A stretch of DNA of 64,000 nt from positions 136,493 to 200,492 of the forward strand of contig NZ_JH376797.1 in assembly GCF_000234095.1 (NCBI RefSeq), given 5' to 3'. The notes beneath the pieces are model-generated. The model was not told the DNA's origin, searched no databases, and saw only the letters and a list, made by a program, of their open reading frames with translations. This stretch comes from Centipeda infelix ATCC 43532 (GTDB lineage Bacteria; Bacillota; Negativicutes; Selenomonadales; Selenomonadaceae). The position numbers were made by a program, and so were the translations under genes. Position 1 is the first letter of the stretch. Each line of letters begins with the position of its first letter. Below, piece after piece: positions 43,397-49,587 of this stretch.

Positions 43397-44263
43397 ATGA
43401 TTACAGGAAAGACAAGACTGCTTGCCGTCATCGGTGCCCCCATCGCCCACAGCCTCTCACCGATCATACAGAATGCAGCCCTGCACGCCGCAGGGCTTGA
43501 CTATGTCTATACGGCTCTGCCCGTACGTGCGGATGCTCTCGCATCTGCGGTGCGCGGTCTCCGCGATGCGGGCATTGCGGGATTCAACGTGACGATTCCG
43601 TTCAAGACGGAGATCATTCCGCTGCTGGATGCGCTGAGTGAGGATGCGCGGCGCATTCAGGCGGTGAATACCGTTGTGATCGAGGACGGCAGAATGGTCG
43701 GTCACAATACGGATGTCGCCGGGTTCCTCGCGGGCTTTGCGGAGCGGGGGATTGCGCTCACAGGGAAAAAAGCTGTACTCATCGGCGCGGGCGGCGCAGC
43801 GCGGGCGGCTCTGTGGGGACTTCTGCGCAGCGGTGTTTCCTCCGTCGTGATCGGCGTACGCAGTGTGGAAAAAGGCGCGGCACTTGCGGCAGACTTTGCA
43901 GTGGACGGCGATGTGCGGGCGGTATCTTTTGATGATACCGCATGGATTGTTGCGTGCAGCGATGCCGATATTGTCGTGCAGACAACGCCGCTGGGTATGA
44001 CACCGCACACAGCGGAGATGCCGCCCGTCGACACTGCGTCGATGAATCCCGCCGCAGTTGTATACGATCTGATCTATACGCCTGCCGAGACGCGCTTTCT
44101 GCGCGAGGCACGGGCGCAGGGATGTGAAACGATCAACGGCGAGACAATGCTCGTCGCGCAGGGGGCGGAGGCATTTCATCTCTGGGCAGGTGTGCGTCCC
44201 GATATGGAACTGATGAAACGAACGCTGCGTGAGGAGCTTGCACGGAATACGTTGCGGTACTGA
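43397..44263 (+). CDS. aroE: Shikimate dehydrogenase
   Basis: The 288-residue enzyme reduces 3-dehydroshikimate with NADPH. GAPIAHSLSPIIQNAAL, FNVTIPFKTEI with the catalytic Lys, HNTDVAGF, GAGGAARAALWGLL and the C-terminal NGETMLVAQGAEAFHLW are all present. It is followed after 42 bases by the nitrogenase-like pair. Confidence 0.95.
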   Translation: MITGKTRLLAVIGAPIAHSLSPIIQNAALHAAGLDYVYTALPVRADALASAVRGLRDAGIAGFNVTIPFKTEIIPLLDALSEDARRIQAVNTVVIEDGRMVGHNTDVAGFLAGFAERGIALTGKKAVLIGAGGAARAALWGLLRSGVSSVVIGVRSVEKGAALAADFAVDGDVRAVSFDDTAWIVACSDADIVVQTTPLGMTPHTAEMPPVDTASMNPAAVVYDLIYTPAETRFLREARAQGCETINGETMLVAQGAEAFHLWAGVRPDMELMKRTLREELARNTLRY

Positions 44264-44305
44264 CACCGATGGCGGTTGAGGAACCGGAGGACTTGGTGGA
44301 GCAGT

Positions 44306-45613
44306 ATGGCAATTAAGGTAAAACGCGCGGGGGTGCGGCGTGCGCAGTGCAGCTGCAGTATGCCCGCTGTCTGGTGGGCGCTCTCGTACGCGCGGGGAGC
44401 ACTGGTTATCTTTCATAGTCCACGCTCCTGTGCACATGTGGTGCGTGAAAAGGATGTCGGTAGCTTTCACCGTCTGGTCGGTGCGGGCACGTATGCACCG
44501 CCGTCGCCCGTACCGCTCCTCACAAGCGGCATCGCTGAGGGCGACGCGGTGTTCGGTGCGGCGGAGCGTCTGCGTGCGTGCATCCGCTATGCGGCGGAGA
44601 AGTATCATCCGCATGCTGTCTTTATCGGCGGCTCCTGCGTGAGCGGCATCATCGGAGACGATACGCGGGCAGTGGCGGAAGAGATGGAGGAGGAACTCGA
44701 TCTGCCTGTTGTGGCAGTCCCCACGAGCGGCTTTTTGGACAATGAATCCTTTGACGGCTATCTCTCGGTTGCGCGTGTGCTGACCGACCGCTTTATGCAT
44801 CCACCCGCGCAGGTGAGGCAAGGGACGGTGGCGTTTCTCGGGGACTATGGCGGCTTCTACAGCTCCTATGTGCAGGAGCTGAAGCGGCTGCTCGCGGGGA
44901 TCGGACTGCAGCTTACGGTACAGTTTCCCACCTATACGCCGCTGGATGAGATACAGGCGGTATCGGAGGCGGAGCTACTCATTGTGCTCGGCAGTTCGAT
45001 GTCGGACGAGAAGCAGGAGATGCTCGTCGCGTTCGCAGAGGAGCTGCATACGCGCTTCGGTACGCCGTACTTTGCCGAGGCGTTTGCGGGCGGTGCGGAG
45101 GAGACGGCGCATTGGCTGCGCTGCATCGGTGTACAATGCGGGCGTACGTCGGAGGCGGAGGAGGTGATCCGACGCGAGGAGGAGGCGTTCGAGCGCGTTC
45201 TCGTGCGTGCGCGGAAGATGCTTGACGGGCGGCGCACGGTGCTGGTCGTTGGGCGTGAGCTGCACTGGCTGCAGCCAGAGATCCTCCTGCACCTGATCGA
45301 AAAGGCGGGCGTATGTCTCGCCGGGATCATCTTGCTCGCACTCTTTACCGAGGAACAGCGTACCACAGTAGAGGAAGGGCTGCGTCAGTGCACGGATGTA
45401 CCGATCCTTGCGGTGGAGGATTCCGCGAGTGAGGAACTGCTGCGGGCGGTGGATTTCGTATTTACCACGCATGAACTCGTGGACGTAGGGCTGCGGCAGA
45501 TCCTGCTCGGCAAGCTGCCCACGGTCGGCTGGGCGATGGAACGGCAGCTCATCGAGGATATGGAGCACGTACTCTATCGGCATACGGACAGAGGAGGGCT
45601 GATCTATGGATGA
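44306..45613 (+). CDS. Nitrogenase component 1-like protein A
   Basis: The product is 435 residues from the ATG at 44306 (GTGGAG just upstream; a TTG at 44276 is less likely). Cys15/Cys17 (QCSCSMP), Cys42 (HSPRSCAHV) and Cys111 (GGSCVSGIIGDD) occupy the places of the three P-cluster Cys of NifD. The Rossmann-like repeats of the component-1 fold follow (VAFLGDYGGFYSSYV, LLIVLGSSMSD, VLVVGRELHW). An obvious FeMo-co Cys/His pair is not seen. Relatives reduce dinitrogen, chlorophyllide, Ni-sirohydrochlorin or thioethers. No nifH is in the window. It overlaps the next gene by 8 bases. Confidence 0.82.
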   Translation: MAIKVKRAGVRRAQCSCSMPAVWWALSYARGALVIFHSPRSCAHVVREKDVGSFHRLVGAGTYAPPSPVPLLTSGIAEGDAVFGAAERLRACIRYAAEKYHPHAVFIGGSCVSGIIGDDTRAVAEEMEEELDLPVVAVPTSGFLDNESFDGYLSVARVLTDRFMHPPAQVRQGTVAFLGDYGGFYSSYVQELKRLLAGIGLQLTVQFPTYTPLDEIQAVSEAELLIVLGSSMSDEKQEMLVAFAEELHTRFGTPYFAEAFAGGAEETAHWLRCIGVQCGRTSEAEEVIRREEEAFERVLVRARKMLDGRRTVLVVGRELHWLQPEILLHLIEKAGVCLAGIILLALFTEEQRTTVEEGLRQCTDVPILAVEDSASEELLRAVDFVFTTHELVDVGLRQILLGKLPTVGWAMERQLIEDMEHVLYRHTDRGGLIYG

Positions 45614-46898
45614 GGCGGTTCTCTCCTTCGACGATATGTCCGTGTGGATGGAGAGCTGTGCGCTGACAGGCGCGGCGGCGTTCTTCGCGGGGCTGCGCGG
45701 CTGTGCCGTGATCGTCAACGGCCCGCTGTGGTGCTATCTCTTTACGCAGCGGCACATCGAGCAGAGCCAGAGCGACATCTCGCACCGCATGAAGTGCACA
45801 CAGCTCGACAACGATGCAATTGTGTTCGGTGCGGAGGATTATCTGCGCGAAGCCCTGCAGCCGCATATCGACCATCCGCCCGCGCTGCTCGCCGTCATTA
45901 GCGGTAGTTCGGCAAGTCTGATCGGCGATGATGTCGGTGCGATTGCACGCGCGGCGGGGGTGACCTGCCCCGTGGTCGCTATTGACAGCGGCGGGCTGGT
46001 CGGCAGCTTTGCGGATGGATGGGCGCGTGCTTCCTGCGCGATGATCGATGTGTTGCTCAGAGAGACACGGGGAGAGGTGCGGTGCGGGGTCAACCTCATC
46101 GGCATGACCTCATCCTACTACAACGGTGAGAACGATGTACGGGAGCTTGTACGCCTGTTGACGGGGGCGGGCTATGAGGTGCGCCACGTATTCGGTTGCG
46201 ACATGCCACCCGAGAGCATTGGCGATCTCTCACAGGCGGAGCTCAATATCGTTGTGCATGATGAGCTCGGGCTTGCAGCGGCAAAGCACATCGAACAGCA
46301 CTGCGGCACGCCGTATATCGCACCGCTTCCCCCGTACGGCCGCGCGGGGACGAAGCGGTGGCTTGCGGCGATCTTTTCCGCACTGCCGCCCGTACGCGGC
46401 GAGGATGCCATGGAGGAGATTGCGGCGGCGGAGCGCAGGGACTTCCTACGGATCAACGATCTCAAGAATACGTGGGGAGAGCTGCTCTTTGATACCGCGC
46501 TCATCCGTGCGCCGCGCTCGTCGGCGTGGGGGCTTGCCGAGGCACTGCGGACGGAGTGGGCGGATGTGCGCCACCTCGCGGTTGCAGCGCAGCTGCGCGA
46601 GGACGCTGCTGCCGTAAAGATCGCGGACGAGCGGCTCGCGGAGACGGATACGGCGCGGGCGCAGGGAGTGCTCGCGGCGATGGAGCGTGGTCTGCTCATG
46701 GGGAGCAGCAGTGAGTCCGTGCTTGCCGACCCGCGCAGGATGCTCTACGTCCCCGTCTCTTATCCTGTCGTGGATCGGCTCCACATCTCGGATCAGCCGT
46801 TTATGGGACTGCGCGGCGCACGGCACATCGAGGACATGCTCTGGAACGGGAGCGTCCTCAGGCGGGAACTGTCTGTCCGCGCAGGTATACATGGATAA
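45606..46898 (+). CDS. Nitrogenase component 1-like protein B
   Basis: This is the 430-residue partner of protein A. Cys18 (ESCALTGAAAFFAGLRG) and Cys43 (NGPLWCYLF) align with the first two P-cluster ligands of NifK. The third position is Ser/Ala (SGSSASLIGDD), as happens in asymmetric family members such as BchB or NifN. NLIGMTSSYYNGENDVREL and VFGCDMPPESIGDL are the later fold landmarks. With A it should form a heterotetramer carrying a modified or single [4Fe-4S] cluster. Substrate unknown. A hairpin terminator follows. Confidence 0.8.
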   Translation: MDEAVLSFDDMSVWMESCALTGAAAFFAGLRGCAVIVNGPLWCYLFTQRHIEQSQSDISHRMKCTQLDNDAIVFGAEDYLREALQPHIDHPPALLAVISGSSASLIGDDVGAIARAAGVTCPVVAIDSGGLVGSFADGWARASCAMIDVLLRETRGEVRCGVNLIGMTSSYYNGENDVRELVRLLTGAGYEVRHVFGCDMPPESIGDLSQAELNIVVHDELGLAAAKHIEQHCGTPYIAPLPPYGRAGTKRWLAAIFSALPPVRGEDAMEEIAAAERRDFLRINDLKNTWGELLFDTALIRAPRSSAWGLAEALRTEWADVRHLAVAAQLREDAAAVKIADERLAETDTARAQGVLAAMERGLLMGSSSESVLADPRRMLYVPVSYPVVDRLHISDQPFMGLRGARHIEDMLWNGSVLRRELSVRAGIHG

Positions 46899-46919
46899 GA
46901 TGGATGCTCTATGAAAAAT

Positions 46920-46956
46920 CGGGGCTGCTGCACATTTCTTTCGTGCAGCAGCCCCG
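46920..46956. terminator. Strong hairpin after the nitrogenase-like pair
   Basis: A perfect 14-bp stem (CGGGGCTGCTGCAC with GTGCAGCAGCCCCG) has a 9-base loop and three T after. It probably stops both the plus-strand operon and the minus-strand ABC remnant. Confidence 0.75.
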
Positions 46957-46960
46957 TTTC

Positions 46961-47347
46961 TCATTGATGAGCTTGTGGTGGGAGGGGGACACAGGTGCGT
47001 GTCTCGGGGATGTGTTCATACCCGACAATCTTCGCGGTGACCCCATACAGTTTTGTGAGTCGTTCCTCTGTGATTGTATCGTTTGTCTGTCCCACGAAAA
47101 ACACGCCGTCCCGCCCCATGATGGCCGTCTGATCTGCACAGTAAAAGGCATGACTTGGTGCATGTGTCGTCATCATAACCGTGATCCCCGCCGCACTGAG
47201 TGTACGGATGCGGTTCATCACGAGCACCTGATTGCCGAAATCGAGGCTCGCCGTGGGCTCGTCCATGCAGAGGAGCTGCGGCTGCTGCGCAATCGCACGT
47301 GCCAAGAGGACAAGCTGCCGCTCTCCGCCGCTGATCTTTGTATGGTC
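46961..47347 (-). pseudogene. ABC transporter ATPase, C-terminal remnant
   Basis: About 125 codons of a FepC/BtuD-type ATPase remain: the signature SGGERQLVLLARA, Walker B QLLCMDEPTASLD and the H-loop TTHAPSHA, then a normal C-terminus and stop. The Walker A half is missing. Upstream the sequence passes directly into the binding-protein gene in another frame, at about 47341-47352. The lost segment must have held the rest of the binding protein, the permease and the front of the ATPase. Confidence 0.85.
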
Positions 47348-47736
47348 TCCTTCTTCTCTCCAACGTCGATAATGACCTGCGGATTCGCGGAGAGCACTGC
47401 CTCCTTGTTGAAATTCTTCATGCCGTAAAACTGACCGAGCACGGGAAGATCGCGGTACTGAGCCCCCACATAGGGGAGCGTAGCATCTTTCCACTGTCCG
47501 GAAATACCGACGAGCTTGTCCGGAGCAATGGCAAAGAGTGCCATCTGGGCAAGACCGCCGGATGGTGCGATGCGATCAATCTGTTTTGGGAGCTCGACTG
47601 TACGTCCTGCGGAATCCGTGAAGGTATATGTCGCGGCGACAGGATTCTCCTTTTCCTCCTGGCCGCATCCGACGAGCAGAATAAGGAGGAGGAATAATAC
47701 GGTGAGCAGTGCATTTCTTTTTTTCACAATCATCAT
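47345..47736 (-). pseudogene. Metallophore-type binding lipoprotein, N-terminal remnant
   Basis: The first 130 or so residues of a cluster A-II substrate-binding lipoprotein remain. The lipobox ends at Cys24 (LLVGC), and the mature start YTFTDSAGRTVELPKQIDRI is typical of siderophore, haem or cobalamin binding proteins. QVIIDVGEKKE is the end of the first lobe. The frame then enters the ATPase remnant out of phase and stops at 47218. The protein cannot fold as a bilobed receptor. The family is clear, the ligand is not. Confidence 0.82.
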
Positions 47737-47757
47737 CCTTTCGTTCTCTGTTCACGG

Positions 47758-47786
47758 TTGAATCTGCTGAATCGCTGTGTTATCCT
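47758..47786 (+). promoter_or_regulatory. Promoter of the first DUF364 gene
   Basis: TTGAAT, 17 bases, then TATCCT, 31 bases before the GTG start. Confidence 0.5.
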
Positions 47787-47817
47787 AGGGGCAACAGATC
47801 TGTGAGGAGGTATTTTC

Positions 47818-48597
47818 GTGAACTACTGGAATCTTTACGATGAGATCATCGACGGATTGCCACAGGACATCTATATCGACGACTATGCCGTCGGACGCCC
47901 ATGGACGTATGTGCGTGCAGGGGATTTGGTCGGCATCTGCATGACGATCCCTGCGTACAGCCGCCCGCGTCTACGAAAGGAGAGCTTTCTCGGCTATTCG
48001 CTGCGCGAAGCGGGAGAGTACGTGCGCTCGTGGCAAGGGCAGGAGGCATCCATTGCCGCTGCTGCCATCAACGCATTTTACAATCAGCCGTCCAAGGTGG
48101 AGGCGATGCAGGGATTCCACGGCGAGGATGCATCCGCCGAAACACTGGATGAGCGCAAGAAGCTGGAAGCATTCGCCATGTATACGGAGCAAATTCGCGG
48201 CAAGAAAGTCGCTGTCATCGGTCACTTTCCGAATTTCCAAAAGAAATGGGAATCGATATGCGACCTCTCCATCCTTGAGATGCAGCCCGAGTGGGGGGAC
48301 TATCCGGCGGAAGCGGCAGAGTTCCTTCTGCCGCAGCAGGACTTTGTCTTTATGACAGGGGCGACCTTTGCCAACAAGACCATGCCGCGCCTTTTAGAGC
48401 TCTCAAAGAATGCCGTGACCGTCCTCGTTGGCCCCTCCGTGCCCATGCATCCATGTCTTTTTGACTACGGTGCAAACGGTCTTTCGGGATTTACAGCAAC
48501 CGATGCTGCACTCGCTGCCGATCTCGTTCATTTCGGCTATGAAACCGATATTGCAAGCTGTGGAAAAATGGCGGACGTTCTTCCACATTTTGTCTGA
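47818..48597 (+). CDS. DUF4213/DUF364 heavy-metal-chelation family protein 1
   Basis: The 259 residues start at GTG behind GAGGAGG. The N-terminal third resembles DUF4213 (an enolase-like cap; GRPWTYVRAGDLVGICMT) and the rest DUF364 (KVAVIGHFPNFQKKW, DFVFMTGATFANKTMPRLLEL, VTVLVGPSVPMHPCLFDYG). The family is annotated as putative metal chelators and tends to occur with metal or tetrapyrrole genes; no activity is firmly known to me. It has its own promoter and terminator between two broken uptake genes, so it survived their loss. Confidence 0.78.
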   Translation: MNYWNLYDEIIDGLPQDIYIDDYAVGRPWTYVRAGDLVGICMTIPAYSRPRLRKESFLGYSLREAGEYVRSWQGQEASIAAAAINAFYNQPSKVEAMQGFHGEDASAETLDERKKLEAFAMYTEQIRGKKVAVIGHFPNFQKKWESICDLSILEMQPEWGDYPAEAAEFLLPQQDFVFMTGATFANKTMPRLLELSKNAVTVLVGPSVPMHPCLFDYGANGLSGFTATDAALAADLVHFGYETDIASCGKMADVLPHFV

Positions 48598-48606
48598 ATA
48601 CAACAT

Positions 48607-48654
48607 AACAGAGTTGCCGTACGTTTTCAAAGCGTACAGCAACTCTGTTTTATT
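48607..48654 (+). terminator. Terminator of DUF364 gene 1
   Basis: AACAGAGTTGC and GTACG pair with CGTAC and GCAACTCTGTT around a short loop, with one bulge and a T-rich tail. It may also act on the minus strand. Confidence 0.75.
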
Positions 48655-48662
48655 TTACGAGG

Positions 48663-48758
48663 TTAGAACGTCATATCCACGCCGAGGAGGAAGTTTGCTC
48701 CTTCTGCCGGATGATAGAGCTTGTCCTGATCGTCCCCGCAAAAGAACTGTTTACGCAC
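48663..48758 (-). pseudogene. TonB-dependent receptor, last 31 codons only
   Basis: On the minus strand the codons read DQDKLYHPAEGANFLLGVDMTF and then stop, the last strand and terminal Phe of an outer-membrane receptor. Upstream the similarity fades within about 10 codons and a live gene (DUF364 gene 2) begins. It is a scar of a receptor that once lay here, probably for the same ligand as the broken ABC system. Confidence 0.65.
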
Positions 48759-48816
48759 CCTTGGAACGAGGCAACAAAGAAGTTCCTCGGGATTACGAAA
48801 TGAGTGAAGAAGCAAC

Positions 48817-49587
48817 ATGACGAAAGAAGAGTTGTTTGGACGGCTGCGCAGCCGCTTTGGCGAGGTCTTGCGGCGGTATCATATGGAGGATGATGCGGTC
48901 GACATTACTTGCCGCTCTCTGACACCGGAGGAGGCGATTGGCAGTCATACGAAGCGCATGGATTTCCCGATCCTGACGGGAAAGGATGTGATGATACAGG
49001 CGGAGTATCGGGGGTGCAAGGGGCAGGCGTTTACCGATGCGCCCGCAGAATATCATGGCAGGCTGAAGGATGTACTGACCATGGATCTGTGCGGTGATCG
49101 ATATGCGCGAAGTCTCTTTCTGGCGACGCTCAATGCGGTCATAGGCGCAGTTGGCCTCTGTGTCGGAACCAGTCACTGCCGCAACGATGGCCCGGAACAA
49201 TGCGCGATGGATATTCGCTCGTATCTGGATGAGTTCTATCCAAATGTCAAGCGCATCGGACAGGTGGGATTCCAGCCGGCGATGGTGGAGATGTTGGTGA
49301 ACTCAAACTATGAGGTTCGCGTCATGGACTTGAATCCGCAGAACATCGGGCAGATCAAATACGGCATTCAGATTGAAAATGGTGCTGACCCGAAGGCAAA
49401 AGATGATATTGTCAAAAACTATGCTGATATTATCTTTTGTACGGGCAGTACGCTTGCCAATGGAACCATCGTGGACTATCTGGATGTTCAGCCGGAGGTT
49501 CATTTCTACGGCATAACGGCAGCGGGTGCTTGTGCCCTGCTAGGACTGAAGCGTCTTTGCTTTGCCCATCGGTATGAGGCATCATAA
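48817..49587 (+). CDS. DUF364-family protein 2 with a Cys-His motif
   Basis: The 256 residues include VGLCVGTSHCRNDGPEQCA, with three Cys and one His in 14 residues, a likely metal or cluster site missing from protein 1. VKRIGQVGFQPAMVEML, YEVRVMDLNPQNIG and IIFCTGSTLANGTIVDYL give the DUF364 fold. The ribosome site is weak and no promoter stands out; the upstream DNA was rearranged by loss of the receptor gene. It probably works with protein 1 and the nitrogenase-like pair. Confidence 0.75.
   Translation: MTKEELFGRLRSRFGEVLRRYHMEDDAVDITCRSLTPEEAIGSHTKRMDFPILTGKDVMIQAEYRGCKGQAFTDAPAEYHGRLKDVLTMDLCGDRYARSLFLATLNAVIGAVGLCVGTSHCRNDGPEQCAMDIRSYLDEFYPNVKRIGQVGFQPAMVEMLVNSNYEVRVMDLNPQNIGQIKYGIQIENGADPKAKDDIVKNYADIIFCTGSTLANGTIVDYLDVQPEVHFYGITAAGACALLGLKRLCFAHRYEAS

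Follow-up and report, generated by a model that had tools for sequence, protein, structure and literature searches.

The pair of nitrogenase-like genes in a 64,000-nucleotide stretch of Centipeda infelix ATCC 43532 (contig NZ_JH376797.1, positions 136,493 to 200,492; this whole stretch is hereafter "the window") raises the question of what such proteins do next to two DUF364 genes and the debris of a metal-complex importer. The initial annotation took all of these genes as one cluster that would reduce an imported metal complex or tetrapyrrole instead of fixing nitrogen. Here we report that the same genome holds, elsewhere, a complete nitrogenase-like H-D-K set headed by a cobalamin riboswitch, of which the window pair is a paralogue. 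This parent operon recurs across the Negativicutes, and the window pair has lost its own nifH and is under purifying selection. We consider it probable that the pair forms the catalytic component of a nitrogenase-like reductase and that it arose in the Selenomonas lineage by duplication from the H-D-K of a corrinoid uptake and processing regulon controlled by cobalamin riboswitches.

The window pair and its lost H subunit

The D-like, or NifD/E-like, gene (44306..45613, plus strand, 435 amino acids) and the K-like gene (45606..46898, plus strand, 430 amino acids), which together with their orthologues we call type B, both match PF00148 (E 7.7e-55 and 2.6e-54; 186.8 and 185.1 bits against a gathering score of 28.6), and their predicted models adopt the nitrogenase component-1 fold, with mean predicted local distance difference test (pLDDT) values of 85.9 for D and 89.9 for K, as the initial annotation had proposed. 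By fold, the best match is MarD for D and BchB of protochlorophyllide reductase for K (Z 38.8, 3.0 Å over 409 residues), in a comparison that ranks only the families listed in it and does not exclude families outside that list. The five P-cluster-type cysteines noticed earlier were also found in the alignment, where Cys17, Cys42, and Cys111 of D and Cys18 and Cys43 of K align with the P-cluster ligands and are invariant throughout the class. The window pair thus retains five of the six, the third K ligand being Ser101 in all nine type B copies and Cys in all 11 type A and C copies of the genus; the parent type has six Cys ligands class-wide. At the position of NifD Cys275, the Cys of the iron-molybdenum (FeMo) cofactor, D carries Gly or Ser, and MarD carries Cys; because no FeMo-cofactor-type Cys is found at the aligned position in D, the substrate is likely to bind directly, in the manner of protochlorophyllide reductase.

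Both window genes are intact and under purifying selection, with ratios of nonsynonymous to synonymous substitution (dN/dS) of 0.13–0.15 for D and 0.15–0.17 for K in the comparisons with genomes G007 and G012 (G and L numbers are our handles for genomes and loci), which are the informative ones, given that G013, which is very close, yields higher values based on few changes. Altogether, the type B pair is full-length in nine genomes. It was correctly stated before that the window holds no nifH gene, but its last 18 codons and stop were overlooked, surviving at 44260..44316 on the plus strand, where they overlap the aroE stop and the D start and read LTPMAVEEPEDLVEQYGN before the stop. The counterpart of this scar is the tail TPMAFEELEDLVEQYGD, also followed by a stop, of the intact type B H in L050 of G012, which retains the whole H-D-K; about 50 residues of H are left in G003 (L040), and other type B loci also keep a similar H tail upstream of D. 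Type B was therefore once an H-D-K that subsequently lost H. The distant nifH-like gene that the initial annotation advised looking for does exist, as the one true gene of this kind in the genome (C4:371192-371995, 362 bits), directly before the second D-K pair. The parent operon with its H is present in all nine genomes carrying the type B pair, and the window pair probably uses this H in trans.

In three loci (L048, L051, and L054), the type B pair has no H, importer, or DUF364 gene with it and lies next to an open reading frame of about 2,250 amino acids, which is adhesin-like by size only and follows a tRNA array in L048 and L051.

The parent operon and its cobalamin riboswitch

In the parent operon, the riboswitch is followed by genes for a radical SAM/SPASM protein, ChlI-like and ChlD-like proteins, CbiZ, a CobN-type chelatase, H, D, and K, and then by a binding protein, ATPase, permease, TonB, TonB-dependent receptor, and TIM-barrel protein, with the families assigned by Pfam and NCBIfam on the homologues of the genus. 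The chelatase, of about 1230–1290 amino acids, lies above the CobN equivalog cut-off of TIGR02257 (946.7 vs. 822.05 bits for the homologue in L053); it scores 772 bits with CobN of solved structure, 541 with ChlH, and 395 with HmuS. In addition, CbiZ, named for adenosylcobinamide amidohydrolase, fits corrinoid remodelling.

In this genome, the cobalamin riboswitch lies 225 nucleotides before the first gene, and RF00174 is found 138–292 nucleotides upstream of the first gene, on the same strand, in all nine operons of the genus whose head is in hand. Since a genome of 2.4 Mb in this genus carries about eight cobalamin riboswitches, only about 0.1% would be expected per operon, and this placement is far from chance. 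Outside the genus, the riboswitch stands 74–370 nucleotides before H (or before K if H is absent) in 11 loci and 1.0–1.7 kb away in four more.

A search of 300 Negativicutes genomes with the K profile found 72 carriers scoring at least 296 bits, and a clear gap separates these from the lower scores. Among the named ones are Sporomusa ovata, S. acidovorans, Pelosinus propionicus, Phascolarctobacterium faecium, Pectinatus frisingensis, Dialister succinatiphilus, Veillonella ratti, and V. seminalis, besides Pelotomaculum propionicicum outside the class. The gene content also recurs, given that the 41 long named loci outside type B include H in 36, the chelatase in 28, the permease in 28, ChlD in 25, the receptor in 22, and CbiZ in 17. 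In a tree that samples NifD/E/K/N, BchN/B/Y/Z, and, from the Mar, Isr, and Cfb systems, a MarD fragment only, D and K form clades of their own, separate from all of these, and type B branches from within the Selenomonas lineage. Such a tree, of the kind proposed in the initial annotation, places the pair inside none of the known clades sampled. A tblastn search of plasmids gave matches only to Nif and Bch relatives.

Some further arrangements were seen among these genomes. In Sporomusa ovata (L265–L271, G139:C4, about 484–619 kb), the genes lie in an island of about 135 kb in which 11 TonB receptors and two open reading frames of more than 2,100 amino acids are packed together with at least 13 cobalamin riboswitches, and riboswitch clusters resembling this island occur in G047 and G053. 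Two K-like genes are present in Pelosinus (L090 and L091), one together with D and the other alone, directly behind its own cobalamin riboswitch. Selenomonas artemidis carries, in addition, a distinct PF00148 pair that does not belong to this family (L036, G001:C1:252621-255172).

Comparison with known nitrogenase-like systems

D and K score far below the cut-offs of all curated NifD/K/E/N, BchN/B/Z, and CfbD models, the best being nifE with 109.6 bits against 505; the BchB model gives 66 bits against 490, and the CfbD model TIGR03282 gives 46.8 bits for D and 32 for K against 268.4. The earlier view that the pair does not serve nitrogen fixation is supported. The system shares features with several described enzymes. 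Like BchL/BchN/BchB, the dark-operative protochlorophyllide reductase, it would be a two-component ATP-driven reductase without the FeMo-cofactor Cys at the aligned position, with K nearest the BchB model and with a class I chelatase in the pathway; unlike it, it falls in separate clades, the parent type has six Cys ligands where BchNB has three Cys and an Asp (PMC11423573), and the parent operon families include a cobalamin riboswitch and no photosynthesis genes. CfbC/CfbD of coenzyme F430 synthesis is a nitrogenase-like reductase acting on a metallo-tetrapyrrole, as the present enzyme would, and the parent H reaches 368 bits with the CfbC model (cut-off 402), but CfbD is a homodimer without K, whereas here D and K occur paired. 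The methylthio-alkane reductase MarHDK and the isethionate reductase IsrHDK are of the same group IV type, with MarD nearest to D by profile as well as by fold and with the cluster Cys ligands kept in Mar too; however, MarD has the additional cofactor-type Cys (GFCYT) that is absent here, IsrD has only one cluster Cys (PMC11423573), and the gene context is another one, with no sulfonate or sulfur genes seen here. Finally, the class I chelatases HmuS and CobN/ChlH share with the parent operon a large chelatase subunit encoded with a TonB receptor and importer, but the present chelatase is closest to CobN and is accompanied by ChlI/ChlD and a nitrogenase-like reductase, and the paper describing HmuS makes no mention of nitrogenase (PMC12583661).

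In the literature held by PubMed Central (PMC), we found no description linking a nitrogenase-like enzyme to a cobalamin riboswitch, nor any of DUF364 with nitrogenase or of a cobalamin riboswitch with nifH, cobN, and CbiZ that describes the system; this is in line with the initial annotation, which knew of no such system, although most subscription journals are outside PMC and novelty is thus unproven.

The separate module beside the pair

The genes downstream of the pair form a module separable from it. Scars of an ATP-binding cassette (ABC) ATPase (46964..47344, minus strand, residues 172–298 of 298; intact in L042/L262), of a periplasmic binding protein (47338..47733, minus strand, residues 1–132 of 353), and of a TonB-dependent receptor (48666..48839, minus strand, residues 610–665 of 665; intact in L042) were rightly recognized as such before, as the intact homologues in G011 make clear, and the importer permease is wholly gone from the window. 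For the binding protein, the intact homologue (L042:13893-14951) has matches to Fe-complex-type binding proteins and a weak one to HI1472. Both neighbouring DUF364 genes, also correctly named, are intact, namely DUF364a (47818..48597, plus strand; a DUF4213 plus DUF364 protein with PF04016 at 5.7e-33, PF13938 at 5.6e-15, and dN/dS of 0.04–0.17) and DUF364b (48817..49587, plus strand; PF04016 at 2.7e-9). In G011 (L262/L042), the order is complete: D and K are followed by the ATPase, permease, and binding protein genes, which lie on the opposite strand, and after these come DUF364a, the receptor, two divergent molybdenum cofactor (Moco) riboswitches, modA, modB, an ABC ATPase whose position suggests modC, and DUF364b. 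Because this gene order is the same, two deletions explain the scars of the window.

In the relatives, DUF364a is convergent to a receptor led by a Moco riboswitch, and DUF364b comes fourth, behind modA, modB, and the ABC ATPase, in an operon also led by one (G011 and G002). The Moco riboswitch RF01055 stands upstream of the receptor or mod genes in G011, G003, G007, G010, and G002, and was lost by deletion in the window. Furthermore, the module of receptor, DUF364a, and importer lies away from the pair in G003, G007, and G010, with the Moco riboswitch before the receptor, and in G005. Four of the nine type B copies have neither importer nor DUF364 nearby, an arrangement that the initial annotation itself had named as speaking against a single cluster of pair, importer, receptor, and DUF364, and this cluster is not supported for the present copy. 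Published genome context ties DUF364 to transporters of molybdate, tungstate, and other metals (PMC2954201), and the context here is the same, with Moco riboswitches, although it additionally includes a TonB-dependent receptor and an Fe-complex-type importer. Given these riboswitches, the mod genes, and the published context, the DUF364, importer, and receptor genes of the window are best read as the remains of a separate molybdenum/tungsten uptake module. The idea of a reductive step on an imported metal complex or tetrapyrrole fits the parent system, with its cobalamin riboswitches, importer, and receptor. That DUF364 belongs to the nitrogenase-like cluster was also checked in the class as a whole, and beyond this genus the idea was rejected.

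The module itself is decaying in L257–L261, with split receptor frames in L258 and L259 and only fragments in L261, and a decayed copy is present in G004, a genome without the type B pair. In Selenomonas felix, an orphan Moco riboswitch (L040:12571-12721) lies about 1.2 kb upstream of the type B nifH scar, and the interval holds an aldo/keto reductase gene on the opposite strand; a homologous aldo/keto reductase adjoins DUF364a in L050.

Proposed mechanism and alternative explanations

In the mechanism that we propose, the receptor and importer would take up corrinoids when these are scarce, CbiZ would strip the nucleotide loop, and H, ATP-driven and with one [4Fe-4S] cluster per dimer, would pass electrons via the cluster of D-K to either the macrocycle or the cobalt of the corrinoid, working together with the CobN-ChlI-ChlD chelatase as it inserts or removes the metal. 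The window copy, with H lost and Ser for one cluster ligand, would most likely borrow the parent H and act on a related substrate. A more specific form of this idea, which we put forward tentatively and think rather doubtful as it stands, is that reductase and chelatase jointly reduce the ring of the imported corrinoid so that its cobalt can be removed or exchanged, as an anaerobic dismantling or re-metalating system that is widespread in the Negativicutes and of which the window pair would be a specialized offshoot for another metal complex. Several facts weigh against a corrinoid assignment. About half of the loci in the class lack a cobalamin riboswitch next to H, chiefly those of Acidaminococcaceae, Dialister, and many Phascolarctobacterium metagenome-assembled genomes, and the TonB receptor scores equally well with the B12 (131.9 bits) and the haem (130.7 bits) families. 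Both the substrate and the reaction of H-D-K are inferred, and the window pair has no riboswitch of its own (there is no Rfam match anywhere in the window and hence no RF00174 aptamer upstream of the pair), so its substrate is a guess from the paralogue. Moreover, the need for salvage is not obvious, as nearly all Negativicutes build the corrin ring themselves, with CbiD of de novo corrin synthesis in 263 of the 300 genomes, and the anaerobic corrin route needs no CobN. B12 auxotrophy was rejected as an explanation for this reason of near-universal CbiD; a system that remodels foreign cobamides or recovers cobalt would make sense where auxotrophy does not explain it.

Within the corrinoid reading, H-D-K might instead act on cobalt, with low-potential electrons producing Co(I) for adenosylation after the chelatase and replacing a CobR-type flavin reductase. 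The aerobic pathway runs from CobNST to reduction to Co(I) by CobR (PMC7242693), and the same functional order could apply; the ATP cost is, however, high for a one-electron step, and the known tetrapyrrole-active nitrogenase-like enzymes reduce ring bonds, which makes this variant somewhat improbable to us. We hold it still less likely that the parent mines haem or porphyrin, importing haem whose ring the enzyme would saturate before the class I chelatase frees the iron, as an anaerobic HmuS analogue with an ATP-driven reductase. HmuS, a CobN homologue, does take iron from haem in gut anaerobes (PMC12583661), the parent receptor scores as high for haem as for B12, and K most resembles the porphyrin-ring reductase BchB, but the chelatase is much nearer CobN than HmuS, and the cobalamin riboswitches and CbiZ point toward corrinoids.

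Other explanations concern the type B pair only. After losing H and leaving the riboswitch operon, it could serve the molybdenum/tungsten module by reducing an imported molybdenum or tungsten complex, which comes near to the idea of the initial annotation. DUF364a occurs somewhere in the genome in nine of nine genomes with the pair and in one of five without it (Fisher about 0.005), a count from 14 related genomes that is phylogenetically confounded. Direct adjacency in four genomes (the window, L042, L044, and L046), DUF364a alone in L050, the orphan Moco riboswitch of L040, and the Ser ligand in every type B copy would agree with such a role. On the other hand, a long distance separates the module from the pair in four genomes, the two are convergent and not co-transcribed where adjacent, and the window pair is still selected although the neighbouring importer and receptor are dead. 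A role of the pair on such a complex thus seems unlikely to us, and a functional link between the DUF364a module and the type B pair, in whatever form, is conceivable but equally improbable. That type B is a duplicate being lost, without a present role, might be suspected from its missing nifH, changed cluster ligand, and decayed neighbours, yet its full length in nine genomes, the low dN/dS against G007 and G012, and the invariance of its other ligands make this very unlikely.

Significance

To our knowledge, most nitrogenase-like enzymes of group IV still lack an assigned function, and the conserved operon with a B12 riboswitch gives one family of this type a concrete and testable assignment, possibly a so far undescribed way of reducing or remodelling imported B12-type molecules. 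The analysis also separates two metal-uptake modules that lie side by side in the window. The hosts are bacteria of the human mouth and gut, such as Selenomonas, Veillonella, Phascolarctobacterium, and Dialister, besides Sporomusa, a model for unusual cobamides. If the proposal is true, it would account for the CobN-type chelatase kept by anaerobes that make B12 without CobN, and it would add another tetrapyrrole chemistry to the nitrogenase superfamily.

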